Source of the DNA: Paenimyroides baculatum
GTDB lineage: Bacteria > Bacteroidota > Bacteroidia > Flavobacteriales > Flavobacteriaceae
Assembly (NCBI RefSeq): GCF_008629655.1
Contig: NZ_VWSG01000006.1
Coordinates: 124,001 to 188,000, forward strand
Reading direction: 5' to 3'
Length of the DNA stretch: 64,000 nucleotides
Part shown: piece after piece, positions 1 through 4,769 of the stretch
How positions within the stretch are numbered: position 1 is the first letter of the stretch
Layout: each line of letters opens with the position of its first letter
Translations under genes and position numbers: made by a program
The notes under the pieces: generated by a model
Databases searched by the model: none
What the model was told of the DNA's origin: nothing
Seen by the model: only the letters and a program-made list of their open reading frames with translations

Positions 1-639
1 GGTGAAACAGACCTTGGAATTGTCTATGATTTTAATGCAATATGTACAATATCAAGGAATATAGCTGAAACTATTGCACAATTTAATGTGATTTTTACTA
101 AATCAAAAAATGAAGATGAAGAAAAGTTTAACCTACTATTATTAAAGTATAACTATGCTTTTCAACGTTTCAAATTATTTGATGATAAACATGAATCAAA
201 TCAACCATATAAACTAGAAGCAAAAAAAGAACTTGATATTATTGATAATGAAATAAGAACACATAAAATTTTTAAACCACATTTTAAATATAAGATGGTG
301 CATAAATTTAATTATGTTCAGAATGGTAAATTTTACTCATCTTCACTTTCAGATTTAATTGATGGAATAATAAGTGAGTATAAAATTTTTAGTAGTGGAT
401 ACAAGCCAAAATTTTACAAACTTCTGTCAAACGAATCACACACAACCATTGGTGTATTAGATTACTTTAAATATTTTCCTACTACCGAAAGAGTACAAAA
501 TGGAATAAATAGGATAATAGATGTTGTATTCCAATACCTTAAATGCTTGTATTCTTCAATGGTAAAATATTATAATATTGAAGGAAATCGCCATTTTGCA
601 TTATTACAAACAATTCATTACATAAAAAAGAATAGTTAA
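1..639 (+). CDS. Hypothetical protein, 5' end outside the window
   Basis: The reading frame is open from base 1, so the gene starts before the window; the first possible internal start is GTG at 88, but there is no stop upstream of it and the codons 1-87 read naturally. At least 212 residues are present. The protein is charged, rich in Lys, Asn, Tyr and Phe, mostly helical in appearance, with no signal peptide or membrane segment. I do not recognise a family; the helical pattern near the visible N-terminus (around NAICTISRNIAETIAQF) is vaguely like HEPN-type proteins such as DUF5677, which is only a weak impression. It ends in a hairpin terminator shared with the convergent gene at 667-984. 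Its composition matches the AT-rich island. Confidence 0.7.
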   Translation, partial: GETDLGIVYDFNAICTISRNIAETIAQFNVIFTKSKNEDEEKFNLLLLKYNYAFQRFKLFDDKHESNQPYKLEAKKELDIIDNEIRTHKIFKPHFKYKMVHKFNYVQNGKFYSSSLSDLIDGIISEYKIFSSGYKPKFYKLLSNESHTTIGVLDYFKYFPTTERVQNGINRIIDVVFQYLKCLYSSMVKYYNIEGNRHFALLQTIHYIKKNS

Positions 640-640
640 T

Positions 641-668
641 AAAAACACTCCTTAAAGGGGTGTTTTTT
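641..668. terminator. Bidirectional intrinsic terminator between convergent genes
   Basis: An 8-bp stem (644-651 with 657-664, one G-T pair) closes a 5-base loop and is followed by a T run at 663-668, preceded by an A run. It lies between the stop of the gene ending at 639 and the stop of the minus-strand gene at 667, so it can serve both. Confidence 0.75.
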
Positions 669-984
669 ATTTCACAGTAATTTTATTATCAACCCTCCAG
701 CCAATCCGAACCACATTTTTATTATAATACATAAAAAACTCGTGTTCAATTATATCAATCTTTTGTAAAATCCTTTTCATTTTCGCCTCATTTAACCCCT
801 CAAAATCCATAAAAATACCCAAACAATTACCTTTCTTATCTAGCACTTTATAAACATGATTAAGGCTCATCTTTAAATCTTTATCCCATATTTTGGTTGA
901 ATCGCTAGCACTTGCATTGACATACTTAAACATAGAAAAGGTTAAGTTTATCTCATAAGCATTGATGAATTTATTTGATTGCAT
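667..984 (-). CDS. Hypothetical protein (105 aa)
   Basis: A small protein of 105 residues starting at an ATG whose complement is at 982-984. It has no signal peptide or clear membrane segment. I see no motif I can name; the middle has a hydrophobic-charged alternation (VYKVLDKKGNCLGIFMDF) compatible with a small alpha/beta fold. It is transcribed toward the gene ending at 639 and shares its terminator. It is divergent from the pair beginning at 1030, 45 bp away. Base composition is that of the AT-rich island. A real gene is likely from length and placement, but function is unknown. Confidence 0.55.
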   Translation of the reverse strand: MQSNKFINAYEINLTFSMFKYVNASASDSTKIWDKDLKMSLNHVYKVLDKKGNCLGIFMDFEGLNEAKMKRILQKIDIIEHEFFMYYNKNVVRIGWRVDNKITVK

Positions 985-1029
985 GGTATTATAATAATTA
1001 TATATAGATTATAAAATTAATGATAAATA

Positions 1030-1467
1030 ATGTCGCCAAAATATGTCATATTAGAAAACCTCATCTTTATTCTTAACCAGCATTCAACCGATAATGTTAC
1101 CCTTTTGCATTATAAAAAATCAAAATCTAAAAAGTATTTTTTTAGCAATGAATATTTCATTTTACTTAACACCGATGATAATGAATATGCTGGTAAAGTC
1201 TTTCAAACAACATTATATGATGATAACGACAATTTTTTATATGAGGATATACCCTTTAAATACACAACAGAAAAGTACTATTATTTTATAGATGATTTGG
1301 TTGATGACCTTCTAAAAAGATTTAAAAATTGTAATATACCAATTGATTTAAAAACCTCATCATTTATAAAAGCTACCTATAAAAAACAATGGATACATCA
1401 GTTATGCAATTTGAATGATAATTTTAATATTCTTGATGAAATGGCTGATGATTTTAATAATATATAA
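1030..1467 (+). CDS. Hypothetical protein (145 aa), first gene of a pair
   Basis: This 145-residue protein is rich in Asp, Asn, Lys and aromatic residues, acidic toward its C-terminus (MADDFNNI), and has neither a signal peptide nor a transmembrane segment. No family was recognised. It ends 3 bp before the next gene, which is of similar size and composition, so the two are probably co-transcribed and may act together. The codon use (AAA, AAT, TTA, ATA heavy) is that of the island and more AT-biased than the housekeeping genes to the right. Confidence 0.6.
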   Translation: MSPKYVILENLIFILNQHSTDNVTLLHYKKSKSKKYFFSNEYFILLNTDDNEYAGKVFQTTLYDDNDNFLYEDIPFKYTTEKYYYFIDDLVDDLLKRFKNCNIPIDLKTSSFIKATYKKQWIHQLCNLNDNFNILDEMADDFNNI

Positions 1468-1470
1468 TAC

Positions 1471-1986
1471 ATGAAGATAGATTTTAATACCCTTAAAAAA
1501 ATATGTCAAGATGAAAATGAGGTATATTTTACCAAATACGATTGCTGGCAATATAGCATACCATCACAATTATTAGTATTACACAAAGACAATGATACTT
1601 ATATTGATATTTATGATACTTTGATAAAAAACAATTTAATAACAATTGATAACGATAATTATTCAAAATCATTTATGCGTAAAGCATTTGCATTTTCCAT
1701 GAATGCAGTTTTCGTTGACTATTATAATATTCAAAATAAACCTTATTTAATACACCATTGTTTAACTGTTGGTGATTTAATTGATTACAGATTTTATAAA
1801 AGAATAGACAATAAATTATACCAATTTAAAATGGCATTTATTGTAGAATTAAATGATGATAAACAATTAATAATTAGAACATTTGATACCAATTTAGACT
1901 TTGTAAAAGCATGTAAGGATAGTCTATTGAGGGTTAATAAAAATTTGATGGAAAGAGAATATTTAAGGCTTAATAAAAAAAGGTGA
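1471..1986 (+). CDS. Hypothetical protein (171 aa), second gene of a pair
   Basis: The 171-residue product starts 3 bp after the preceding stop. It contains no recognisable motif, signal peptide or membrane span. The C-terminus is basic (LRLNKKR). The similar size, the Asp/Asn/Tyr-rich composition and the tight spacing with the preceding gene suggest that the two form an operon; a relationship such as toxin-antitoxin or a two-part system cannot be shown from the sequence. No terminator was seen directly after it; the next hairpin is at 2164-2194. Confidence 0.6.
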   Translation: MKIDFNTLKKICQDENEVYFTKYDCWQYSIPSQLLVLHKDNDTYIDIYDTLIKNNLITIDNDNYSKSFMRKAFAFSMNAVFVDYYNIQNKPYLIHHCLTVGDLIDYRFYKRIDNKLYQFKMAFIVELNDDKQLIIRTFDTNLDFVKACKDSLLRVNKNLMEREYLRLNKKR

Positions 1987-2113
1987 TGAATATAGTAATA
2001 GATGACTTATAAAAAATATGTAAGTAGGTCAATTTTAATTACTTATTTCATTCATTTCTACTTTTCTTATATTTAATTATTCTGTTTTTCTTTTATTTTT
2101 TTTTCGTTTTTCT

Positions 2114-2143
2114 TTTGTTTTAAAAAAAATGTATCTATCTTTG
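2114..2143 (+). promoter_or_regulatory. Bacteroidota-type promoter with no gene downstream on the same strand
   Basis: TTTG at 2114-2117, an 18-bp spacer and TATCTTTG at 2136-2143 match the TTTG - N17-23 - TAnnTTTG consensus of the Bacteroidota primary sigma factor. Transcription would start near 2148 and run almost at once into the hairpin at 2164-2194. Either a very short RNA is made or the promoter is a relic. Confidence 0.5.
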
Positions 2144-2163
2144 CATGTATCAAAAAGAAATGA

Positions 2164-2194
2164 AAAAGGAACTGACTGTGAATCAGTCCCTTTT
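2164..2194. terminator. Hairpin terminator downstream of the 71-aa gene
   Basis: A 12-bp stem with one mismatch (2164-2175 with 2183-2194) and a 7-base loop has an A run on one side and a T run on the other, so it can act on both strands. On the minus strand it follows the stop of the gene at 2200-2415. Confidence 0.65.
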
Positions 2195-2199
2195 AAAGT

Positions 2200-2415
2200 C
2201 TAGTTTACATAAGTAAGAATAAATTCAATTATTTCTACAAATATTTTAAGGGTTATTGCAAGTGACCCAATTTTAGAAATAATGTCCTTCTTCTTTGATT
2301 TTGGAGGTTTTTCCATAATAAAAGTATGAGGTGTTAGTAATTCCGTTCCCGAAGCCATGTCGGTGCATGTTGTTGTTTGTGTCCCATTCATGAGATTTTG
2401 TGAATTTAAATTCAT
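2200..2415 (-). CDS. Small protein with C-terminal hydrophobic helix (71 aa)
   Basis: The 71-residue product has a polar Thr/Asn-rich first half, a basic patch (KPPKSKKK, about residues 37-44) and a hydrophobic C-terminal segment (residues about 49-70: SLAITLKIFVEIIEFILTYV). That layout, basic patch then one hydrophobic helix at the C-terminus, suggests a small single-span inner-membrane protein with a cytoplasmic N-terminus. A TAATTTTG box upstream on its strand (complement near 2473-2480) and a hairpin just after the stop make it a self-contained transcription unit. Small membrane toxins have a similar shape, but nothing here proves that. No family was recognised. Confidence 0.5.
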   Translation of the reverse strand: MNLNSQNLMNGTQTTTCTDMASGTELLTPHTFIMEKPPKSKKKDIISKIGSLAITLKIFVEIIEFILTYVN

Positions 2416-2808
2416 CCTTTAGTTATTTAAGCGTTACGTTAGTGATATAGACTAGTAAGGCAAATTTGTTTTGCAAAATTAAGAAATTATTTTGATATTT
2501 CCTAATATTTTGTTAACTATTTTCGGCTACATGATTATTTTTATGAATTCTGTAACTAATTAAAATAAAAATCAATTATTCAGTAGCAAATTTATAGTAA
2601 ATAACTCAATTTAATAATTTTCCCTTATTACTAAAACACATATTACCTCACATTCTAATCTAACCAAAAATCTATTTTTCAAAAGTTTATATTGGTAAAT
2701 TTTAAAATTTCATATTGTAAATTCAATTAACTACAACAAATTTATATTGAATATTTCTAGTTAAGAAATTAATCCTAATATTGCTAAACATACAATTTAA
2801 CCAAAAAA

Positions 2809-2828
2809 CATTTCAAAATTTTGAAATG
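2809..2828. repeat. 20-bp perfect palindrome
   Basis: CATTTCAAAATTTTGAAATG reads identically on both strands. It lies 24 bp before the strong hairpin at 2852. It may be a protein-binding site or a hairpin within an RNA; in such AT-rich DNA chance is possible but unlikely at this length. Confidence 0.45.
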
Positions 2829-2851
2829 GTGAATTTCAAATTTCCATAAGC

Positions 2852-2890
2852 AAAAGACCCCAGCTAACATAATTTAGCTGGGGTCTTTTT
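2852..2890 (+). terminator. Orphan strong intrinsic terminator
   Basis: A perfect 16-bp stem (2852-2867 with 2874-2889), GC-rich in the middle (GACCCCAGCT), closes a 6-base loop and is followed by more T. It is the strongest hairpin in the island, yet no coding region ends just before it on either strand: the nearest rightward gene ends at 1986 and no leftward gene lies to the right. It therefore suggests an unannotated transcript, perhaps a small RNA. Confidence 0.7.
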
Positions 2891-2939
2891 TAGTCAAAAA
2901 TTTAATAGTATAACATATATAATTATTGTTCTATTCCCT

Positions 2940-2952
2940 TTCAAACCCTTAT
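2940..2952. repeat. Left copy of a 13-bp inverted pair
   Basis: TTCAAACCCTTAT here is the exact reverse complement of 3652-3664. The two copies bracket the excisionase-like gene, and the right copy lies 8 bp from the yifB breakpoint. They may be recombinase sites or remnant element ends. Confidence 0.35.
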
Positions 2953-3135
2953 TTTTACTACATTTAAAGCGATTTAAGAGCTTCTTTATTGCGTGCTAAC
3001 ATTATTCTTCTTTCCAAATATAATGGCTTAAATCGCTCATTTAGGATATAATAATTATAATTATTTACAACTTTTTTTACCCATTTCAACAACTTTTTTT
3101 AAAAATTCTATATAAGGAATATAAAAAGTTATAAA

Positions 3136-3534
3136 ATGAAAAAGTACACAGATAAAGAAAAGATTAAGTTTGAAATATATGGTGAAGAATTAAATGAATA
3201 TATTGAATTTACTTATGGTTACTCAACTTTTGGTAAAATGATTGATGCAATGATTGCACAACGAGTTGACAAAATCGAACCAATTTTAATTGATAATAGG
3301 ATAGAAGCACCACATTTAATTGATAGAAAAGGTTTAGCCGATATGTTTGGCACATCGACCGAAAATATTATAAAATGGCAAAAGAATAAAACTATTGAAA
3401 ATGTATATGTAGCTGATACAAACAAGGTCTATTATAATTTTAAAAATTCAATTGAAGCGATTAAAAACATGTCAAATATCAAATCAAAATATTTGGATAA
3501 TTTAAAGATGAATCTTCAAAAATATATACTGTAA
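3136..3534 (+). CDS. Helix-turn-helix protein resembling excisionase / HTH_17
   Basis: The 132-residue protein has a putative MerR/excisionase-type helix-turn-helix at about residues 64-110: the pattern DRKGLADMFGTSTENIIKWQ followed by a short wing and VYYNFKNSIEAI has the usual layout (hydrophobic helix, GTS turn, recognition helix ending in W, wing with a tyrosine pair, dimer helix). Such proteins in Bacteroidota are frequent on integrative elements, where they act as excisionases or local regulators. It lies 138 bp from the yifB breakpoint, consistent with a recombination-directionality role (inference). The first 60 residues are not recognised. No integrase gene is next to it in the window. 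Confidence 0.6.
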   Translation: MKKYTDKEKIKFEIYGEELNEYIEFTYGYSTFGKMIDAMIAQRVDKIEPILIDNRIEAPHLIDRKGLADMFGTSTENIIKWQKNKTIENVYVADTNKVYYNFKNSIEAIKNMSNIKSKYLDNLKMNLQKYIL

Positions 3535-3651
3535 GTCTTGAATTTGAAGGAATTACAACTTAATACAAGTTTTGTTATTTAAACAATAATTACTATGTTT
3601 GGAGGAAATATTGGAGGCGATTAGCTGTTGAAATTGATAAACCTAGTGTTT

Positions 3652-3670
3652 ATAAGGGTTTGAACCCTAT
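3652..3670. repeat. Right copy of 13-bp inverted pair overlapping a 14-bp palindrome at the yifB breakpoint
   Basis: ATAAGGGTTTGAA (3652-3664) is the inverse of 2940-2952. It overlaps the palindrome AGGGTTTGAACCCT (3655-3668), which looks like a tRNA T-arm (GGGTTTGAACCC). The yifB homology starts at 3673. Together these make an attachment-site relic plausible but unproven; no remaining tRNA could be folded here. Confidence 0.35.
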
Positions 3671-3672
3671 GA

Positions 3673-4059
3673 GTTGACCTGCACATTGAAGTTAATCCTG
3701 TTCCGTTTGAAAAGCTGGCGGATAAATCAACAGCCGAAAAAAGCGATGCTATAAGAAACCGTGTCATCCACGCTCGTTCGCTTCAATCAAAAAGATTTAA
3801 AGAGTATCATGGAATTCATTACAACGCACAAATGCCTACAAAACTCATTTCGATTTTTTGTGAGCTCGATGAAACTTCACTGAATCTATTGCAAACAGCC
3901 ATGGAAAAACTGAATTTATCTGCCCGAGCGTACGACAGAATTTTAAAAGTTGCACGAACAATTGCCGATTTGGAAACTGCCGATAAAATAAAACCCCAGC
4001 ATATTGCCGAGGCTATTCAGTACCGAAGTTTAGATCGTGATTTATGGACAAACAATTAA
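3673..4059 (+). pseudogene. yifB: 3' fragment of yifB/comM (Mg-chelatase-like AAA ATPase)
   Basis: Reading from 3673 gives about 128 residues starting VDLHIEVNPVPFEKL, and continuing with HYNAQM, LNLSARAYDRILKVARTIADLE and IQYRSLDR, the C-terminal domain of the YifB/ComM family. ComM is a helicase-like AAA ATPase that helps branch migration during natural transformation; the full protein is about 510 residues. The N-terminal two thirds, with Walker A and B, are absent, and in-frame TGA codons lie at 3661 and 3670 just before the homology. The homology begins right after the conserved LDRI of the family. An ATG at 3832 would allow only 75 residues. The break is abrupt and the remainder undecayed, so the loss looks recent. 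It overlaps the convergent gene at 4056 by 4 bp. Confidence 0.85.
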
Positions 4060-4769
4060 GATTGTTGTTCAGTTATATGTGTGTATAAACTGTATGCAAC
4101 TATGTAGTTTAAAGGCAAAGTTAACACGATTCCGATTCCGAAAAATAAAATCCCAATAAACGACAAAAGATAGGTAAATGCGATGAATGCAAATAAAAAT
4201 CCCGGTTTTTGATTGACCGTTTGTATACTGAAATTCACGCTTTTTGTAATGTTGAAATTGCTTATATAAATGCTTGGAACGGCGAAATAAGTTAAAAGTT
4301 GTATCAGCAGACTAATGCCTAAACCAACCAAGCCAAAACCGGCAAGTTCCAAATAATAAGATATTGCGGTAGTTATAATTTGAATAAGGATGATTACATT
4401 CAATGCTTTTAGTCCCTGTTTACTAAAAATAGTTGTAAAGGCACTGCCTAAATCGGCATATGGTTGTGCGTTTACTTTTTTGATCATACCGTAAATTCCG
4501 CCAAAAAAATAATGCAGAACTATGCTTGCCACCATGTTTACAATCATAATTTCGGTTGCATTTGCGGCAATAAATTCTTCGGCAATTGTTTGGTTAGAAA
4601 GTTTTATAAACTCGTCGGGCGATCCTATTAAAGAAATCAACCCAACCATATAAATAAACGAAACAATTATAAACGTAAGAAAAATATACAAACCAGCCGT
4701 AACTGATACTTTTTTGGCAAGGGAAATTATTTGTTCTGATAATTTCAGCTGATCGATTTCGTAACTCAT
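4056..4769 (-). CDS. Multi-pass inner-membrane protein of unknown function
   Basis: The 237-residue protein has about five or six hydrophobic segments (around residues 25-47, 73-95, 120-140, 143-168, 190-215 and 212-230) separated by short polar loops, a short cytoplasmic-looking N-terminus and no signal peptide. No catalytic motif is visible, and I do not recognise the family; glycerophosphoryl-diester-like or DUF4013-like membrane proteins have a similar layout. Its stop overlaps the end of the yifB fragment by 4 bp, an arrangement that suggests this was the original chromosomal neighbour of yifB. A hairpin at 4776-4810 separates it from the metallopeptidase gene upstream. Confidence 0.75.
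   Translation of the reverse strand: MSYEIDQLKLSEQIISLAKKVSVTAGLYIFLTFIIVSFIYMVGLISLIGSPDEFIKLSNQTIAEEFIAANATEIMIVNMVASIVLHYFFGGIYGMIKKVNAQPYADLGSAFTTIFSKQGLKALNVIILIQIITTAISYYLELAGFGLVGLGISLLIQLLTYFAVPSIYISNFNITKSVNFSIQTVNQKPGFLFAFIAFTYLLSFIGILFFGIGIVLTLPLNYIVAYSLYTHITEQQS

Follow-up and report, generated by a model that had tools for sequence, protein, structure and literature searches.

The yifB/comM gene of Paenimyroides baculatum (genome G000; 3.34 Mb in 31 contigs) is split after codon 385, within the conserved LLDRIDLH motif, by an element of 33,463 bp (C28:94213–127675, left core to right core). The element, which looks complete, is very probably a temperate prophage of the tailed-phage type, whose own tyrosine recombinase integrated it at the 8 bp sequence GACCTGCA within this motif. 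The window, i.e., the whole stretch of 64,000 nt that was analysed, corresponds to C28:124001–188000 and begins inside the element, the right end of which, delimited by flank comparison and phage genes, occupies nt 1–3675 (C28:124001–127675). Recombination of the 8 bp core by the integrase would have inserted the prophage directly after codon 385. Mobile elements in comM have been published before (PMC4774983, PMC10083194, PMC9203015, PMC11472951), so that comM is already known as a target; what appears to be new is the orphan tyrosine integrase and its point of insertion in this gene.

Homology to the YifB C-terminus begins abruptly in the window, as described in the first-pass annotation, and nt 3673–4059 match the Mg_chelatase_C domain (PF13335, 2.6e-35). 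The valine codon (GTT) at nt 3673 that had been taken as the start of the homology is prophage DNA, however, and host DNA begins at nt 3676 (D386). The 3' fragment, as established by Pfam and by joining of the flanks, is at nt 3676–4059 (+ strand) and consists of codons 386–512 (nt 3676–4056) and the stop codon (nt 4057–4059); its earliest in-frame start codon lies at nt 3832. The missing 5' part, which the annotation had proposed to search for leftward, was found on the same contig and strand as a 394-aa frame (C28:93058–94242) with ChlI and Mg_chelatase domains, the ChlI match lying at C28:93115–93480, about 34 kb left of the window fragment. The two halves of the gene are 33.5 kb apart. Joining the flanks at the shared 8 bp core gives a single YifB frame of 512 aa, free of gaps and stops, in which the ChlI, Mg_chelatase and Mg_chelatase_C domains, divided over the two fragments, become contiguous and make up the YifB/ComM domain set. 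The joined protein is identical to the intact YifB of the relative G501 at 492 of 512 residues (96%), without a gap. The proposal that yifB had been cut at a single point by accessory DNA is borne out by the two halves, the common core and the gap-free joined frame.

An intact yifB elsewhere in the genome, or relatives with the same truncation, had been named as findings that would speak against an interrupted gene. A profile search of the P. baculatum genome with PF13541 (the N-terminal ChlI domain) returned three places, one of which was yifB (152 bits); the other two matches (41.6 and 37 bits) belong to frames that code for 468 and 839 aa and are presumably RadA and Lon. As no second yifB was found by this search, the reading of the window fragment as part of a duplicate gene was rejected. 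The nearest relatives in the genus (N-terminal YifB identity 96% for G501, 95% for G423, and 92% for G568 and G418) are not truncated: all four carry intact yifB frames of 518–523 aa, and three of them read continuously through the junction as LLDRIDLHIEV. In P. baculatum, yifB is alone on its strand, since the ORF list places a divergent gene upstream of the 5' part (C28:92360–92935, − strand) and a convergent host gene downstream (nt 4056–4769, − strand) that overlaps the yifB stop codon. The insertion should therefore silence no other genes.

The attL core (C28:94213–94220, 8 bp) and the attR core (nt 3676–3683, + strand; C28:127676–127683) are identical copies of GACCTGCA, and the latter extends over yifB codons D386 and L387 to the second base of H388. 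A direct repeat at both ends, with restoration of the target frame on joining, is the arrangement sought for a prophage, although the shortness of the 8 bp core counts against this explanation. The exact 8-mer is present once among the 46 loci in which the LLDRIDLH motif was found (108 loci examined, strict motif). A short repeat, TGGAGGAAWT, has three exact copies beside attL (C28:94358, 94370 and 94388) and one beside attR, TGGAGGAAAT, at nt 3600–3609 (+ strand). The repeats may be arm-type sites of the integrase, a suggestion from the repeat search that is weakened by a further exact copy in the middle of the element (C28:113228–113237, − strand), so that their occurrence is not confined to the ends; these are all the exact copies across loci L004 and L005 and the window. 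No terminal inverted repeat was seen, the inner ends of the element agreeing at 10 of 30 positions when compared in register, and the predicted DNA fold of the attR region was not significant (z −1.0).

The GC content of the element is 0.285, compared with 0.339 for nt 4060–64000 of the window, consistent with the earlier description of the DNA to the left as AT-rich. Between the two cores are 33 ORFs of at least 90 aa; the Pfam, PHROGs and PADLOC scans covered 16, 20 and 10 of the element proteins, respectively. The integrase (467 aa; ORF C28:94534–95937) lies 313 bp inside attL. It matches PF13102 exactly at the cut-off and phrog_1 at 1.3e-6, while its match to PF00589 falls below the cut-off of that family, which counts against the assignment. 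Residues R282, K306, H390, R393, H416 and Y425 are invariant in all 29 aligned sequences (the integrase and 28 relatives), as are P331 and T414. The R-K-H-R-H-Y set is the catalytic set of tyrosine recombinases, and the assignment of the protein to this group follows from the PF13102 and phrog_1 matches together with these catalytic residues. On the opposite strand to the integrase are genes for a portal protein (phrog_33693, 2.6e-32), a putative capsid protein, a tape measure protein (PHROGs, 1.7e-12), neck/tail completion proteins (neck1, PHROGs, 1.4e-7) and the large terminase TerL (phrog_2, 8.3e-30; PF04466, 2.3e-11), so that head, packaging and tail genes are all represented, as sought for a prophage. 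The putative capsid protein belongs to a nameless family (phrog_11320) and shares 29% identity with a hypothetical protein of Nonlabens phage P12024.

None of the scanned proteins was recognised as a repressor, an endolysin or an excisionase. The 132-aa ORF beside attR (nt 3136–3534, + strand) had been labelled excisionase-like, a label that the searches did not uphold: there was no match in PHROGs or PADLOC, and the sole Pfam match was irrelevant and below the cut-off. By its position, it is a candidate excisionase or directionality factor. The other prophage ORFs of the window have no assigned function and code for proteins of 296 aa (C28:123749–124639, + strand, the 3' part at nt 1–639), 105 aa (nt 667–984, − strand), 145 aa (nt 1030–1467, + strand) and 171 aa (nt 1471–1986, + strand). 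A GIY-YIG homing-endonuclease-like ORF is also carried by the element (L005:10253–10807; C28:120252–120806, − strand; phrog_314, 6.9e-12). Two weak PADLOC matches among the ten proteins (E = 0.0082 and 0.00024, over short stretches) were not accepted as defence genes.

Close relatives of the integrase were not found in either of the collections searched (viral_contigs and genome_contigs), and its matches in the family, the genus, the class and phage records are only 22–34% identical. In whole genomes, matches of 23–34% identity were present in 57 of 396 other family genomes (E ≤ 1e-10), in 25 of 198 other genus genomes (1e-12) and in five of 394 others in the class sample (1e-14). TerL relatives (29–32% identity) occur in six of 198 other genomes of the genus, all six of which have a full-length yifB frame, among the matches listed. 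Flavobacterium phage 11b (TerL, 32% identity) and Nonlabens phage P12024 (putative capsid protein, 29%) are distant kin of the element, neither of them close, and both were absent from the integrase matches at E ≤ 1e-5. The yifB 3' fragment, used as a query against viral_contigs, found no relative. Part of the element is already represented by an IMG/VR provirus entry (IMGVR_UViG_2938225848_000002; 28,523 bp), with no mismatches over the 17,851 bp compared. The right end of the entry is at C28:124984, short of attR, and its left end, extrapolated on the assumption of colinearity, would lie near C28:96462, past the integrase and the left end of the element. Provirus ends within yifB are thus easily overlooked: the entry misses the right end and, by this extrapolation, the integrase and left end as well.

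Given the insertion of AbaR/Tn6022 transposons in comM of Acinetobacter, a similar Tn7-like (DDE) transposon had been suggested here. The target gene is the same, and a Tn7-like element does adjoin yifB in G452, a member of the same genus, where a TnsA-TniA-TniB-TniQ set abuts codon 284; the idea of AbaR-like targeting in a flavobacterium thus holds for G452 and fails for P. baculatum. None of the four G452 proteins has a match in the P. baculatum element (E ≤ 0.01), the ends lack the terminal inverted repeats that would accompany a short target duplication (10 of 30 positions alike), and what the element does carry is a tyrosine integrase together with structural genes of a phage. The proposed check for recombinase genes and a duplication gave a tyrosine integrase and an 8 bp repeat, and no TniA, and a transposon of this type is extremely unlikely here. 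An element of the large serine recombinase type (Resolvase, Recombinase and Zn_ribbon domains) was rejected after 15 serine recombinases from other yifB inserts were found to match nothing in it (E ≤ 0.01).

The state of the prophage allows two further readings. It could be decayed and immobile, with the split yifB a fixed pseudogene. In favour of this, none of the scanned proteins was recognised as a lysis protein, repressor or excisionase, and G552 offers an example of yifB with internal stops. Against it, the integrase and those structural genes that were recognised have open frames, and the joined yifB halves, without stop or gap, are still 96% identical to G501; decay is considered rather unlikely. 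The opposite reading is active lysogeny, in which the prophage would at times excise without lysis and switch comM back on. Listeria phage 10403S reportedly does so at comK, reactivating that gene. The 8 bp core common to both flanks means that excision would restore the exact yifB frame, but this is to be expected of any site-specific integrase, and the scans recognised no excisionase, so that such switching appears improbable, more so than decay.

To place the insertion in a wider context, the N-terminal part of YifB was searched for in 397 genomes of the family and 199 of the genus, together 593 distinct genomes; 41 and 22 of the two sets, respectively, mostly low-scoring or empty, were re-examined. 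At least 19 of the 593 genomes, P. baculatum included, have yifB split into two large pieces, at about six insertion points. In 18 of these, the two pieces share a contig and a strand and are separated by 10.5 to 58.4 kb. In G544, they are on opposite strands about 720 kb apart (C1:2693765–2694613, +; C1:3417035–3417379, −), as if a chromosomal inversion had used inserted elements. The splits lie near codon 148 (G560, G582), codon 202 (G433), codon 218 (G434, G443, G452), codon 280 (G039, G049, G063, G090, G155, G294, G304, G496, G544, G548) and codon 297 (G018, G384), and at codon 385 in P. baculatum, which has the sole frame running from codon 1 to codon 385–394 among the matches listed. The number of split genomes is a lower bound because the count leaves out genomes with pieces on different contigs (e.g., G041, G048, G086, G147, G188, G194, G235, G360, G362, G397, G451, G500, G516, G525), with one piece only (e.g., G106, G161, G210, G232, G305, G326, G330, G424, G526, G563) or with a frameshifted or stop-bearing yifB (G264, G300, G344, G543, G552), as well as G431 (pieces about 1 kb apart), a second short copy in G082, and the genomes without a yifB match (49 of 397 in the family, 10 of 199 in the genus). 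Six of the matchless genomes (G030, G075, G099, G142, G416, G437) were re-examined and still gave none. The yifB of G552 (C1:2401855–2403033) is unsplit and has seven internal stops, an instance of decay without an insert.

A full large serine recombinase was found in 15 of the split genomes, in eight by Pfam and in seven by a profile of those eight. Most adjoin a junction, while that of G063 lies several kb inside, and in G544 the start of a serine recombinase is present at the edge of the fetched stretch. Serine recombinases of different sites are 21–43% identical (66 pairs); sites 148, 218 and 297 are each represented by one pair, with 42%, 69% and 57% identity, respectively. Identities among the nine recombinases of site 280 lie between 26 and 85%, so that this site is used by quite different enzymes. 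G433 carries a tyrosine recombinase of 600 aa (PF00589, 2.3e-15) that is unrelated by BLAST to the P. baculatum integrase. In G452, a serine recombinase remnant lies inside the insert and yifB codons 219–283 were not found; the gene appears to have been hit twice (C2:17600–77800; loci L176, L306, L307, L177), and this is the closest case here to the AbaR idea. The cargo beside the G452 yifB fragment includes a 504-aa protein with a TssD (Hcp) domain (L176:1148–2662). Among IMG/VR loci, three with a distant yifB (L079, L117, L121) lose similarity at codons 383–386, just after GPLLD, and the breaks adjoin large recombinases that, read by eye, are resolvase-like. Judging by these sequences, other elements also seem to exploit the LLD(R) motif. 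A fourth candidate among the viral loci, L112 (identity about 31%), likewise ends near codon 385 but was excluded because its break was not clear. In 17 of 55 IMG/VR loci (L078, L081–L086, L090, L094–L097, L101, L104, L114, L116, L118), two of them on one contig, YifB similarity ends near codons 340–359; these are alignment ends only, and possibly represent a second cluster of breaks.

Open-literature titles and abstracts, with subscription journals largely outside this scope, returned no tyrosine-integrase prophage in comM of Flavobacteriaceae. The recombinases of group sr1 in prophage WO are presumably serine enzymes. Prophage WO sr1WO of Wolbachia is described as likewise splitting a gene annotated as magnesium chelatase, and differs from the window prophage in its recombinase group (sr1) and in the phylum of its host (PMC9203015). 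Durrant et al. 2022 (PMC10083194) report large serine recombinase elements in a gene annotated as 'magnesium chelatase/ATP-dependent protease', which was hit by 12.4% of their predicted site-specific integrases and, by its annotation, apparently belongs to the yifB family. Elements of this kind also occur in the Flavobacteriaceae examined here, near codons 148, 218, 280 and 297, in contrast to the window element, which has a tyrosine recombinase and sits at codon 385/386. The AbaR islands of Acinetobacter also interrupt comM, where this is associated with lower transformation, but they are Tn7-like elements and not tyrosine-integrase prophages (PMC11472951). Croucher et al. 2016 (PMC4774983) describe mobile elements in comM of several proteobacteria (Aggregatibacter, Mannheimia, Francisella and Pseudomonas) and prophages in comYC and comFA; like the window element, these place mobile DNA in competence genes, with orthologous sites and divergent integrases. 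With respect to the comM integrase of Aggregatibacter in that report (CF65_00446; PMC4774983), the novelty of the P. baculatum integrase is provisional.

In the lysogen, the interrupted gene would specify a 394-aa ComM without the C-terminal Mg_chelatase_C domain, which is expected to be inactive. In other bacteria, ComM is described as a helicase that aids recombination of heterologous transforming DNA (PMC11472951), and by analogy this help would be lost in the lysogen, while exact excision of the prophage would restore yifB. Reduced transformation is plausible by analogy; P. baculatum has both comEC and dprA as open frames, so transformation is conceivable, and competence has been reported within the Flavobacteriaceae for Riemerella (PMC7965970). 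In V. cholerae, the role of ComM is described as very minor for identical DNA (PMC11472951).

A conserved motif, a gene that is probably dispensable and its solitary position on the strand all make yifB suitable for an integrase. It may therefore be merely a convenient landing site, the loss of ComM bringing the phage no benefit and changing transformation little or not at all. This reading, which is given somewhat less than an even chance, agrees with the several different points of yifB that inserts occupy, with its being alone on its strand, and with F. johnsoniae, which has comEC and dprA homologues and was not transformable in one study under the one condition tested (PMC7965970). Set against it are the enrichment of competence genes reported among serine-recombinase targets (PMC10083194), the targeting of comK, comYC, comFA and comM by mobile elements (PMC4774983), and the open comEC and dprA frames of P. 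baculatum. For a prophage integrated by its own tyrosine recombinase, reduced clearing by transformation is a possible added benefit. A broader proposal is that three unrelated modes of integration in the Flavobacteriaceae (serine, tyrosine and DDE/Tn7-like) converged on different points of this one gene because knockout of ComM shields the elements from removal by transformation, with the window prophage perhaps acting as a reversible switch; it is at present speculative and rather doubtful.

The present analysis contributes a prophage with a tyrosine integrase, together with a series of naturally occurring insertions in comM of Flavobacteriaceae. The genomes with split and with intact yifB provide a resource for asking whether disabling transformation is a means by which mobile elements escape being cured from their hosts.
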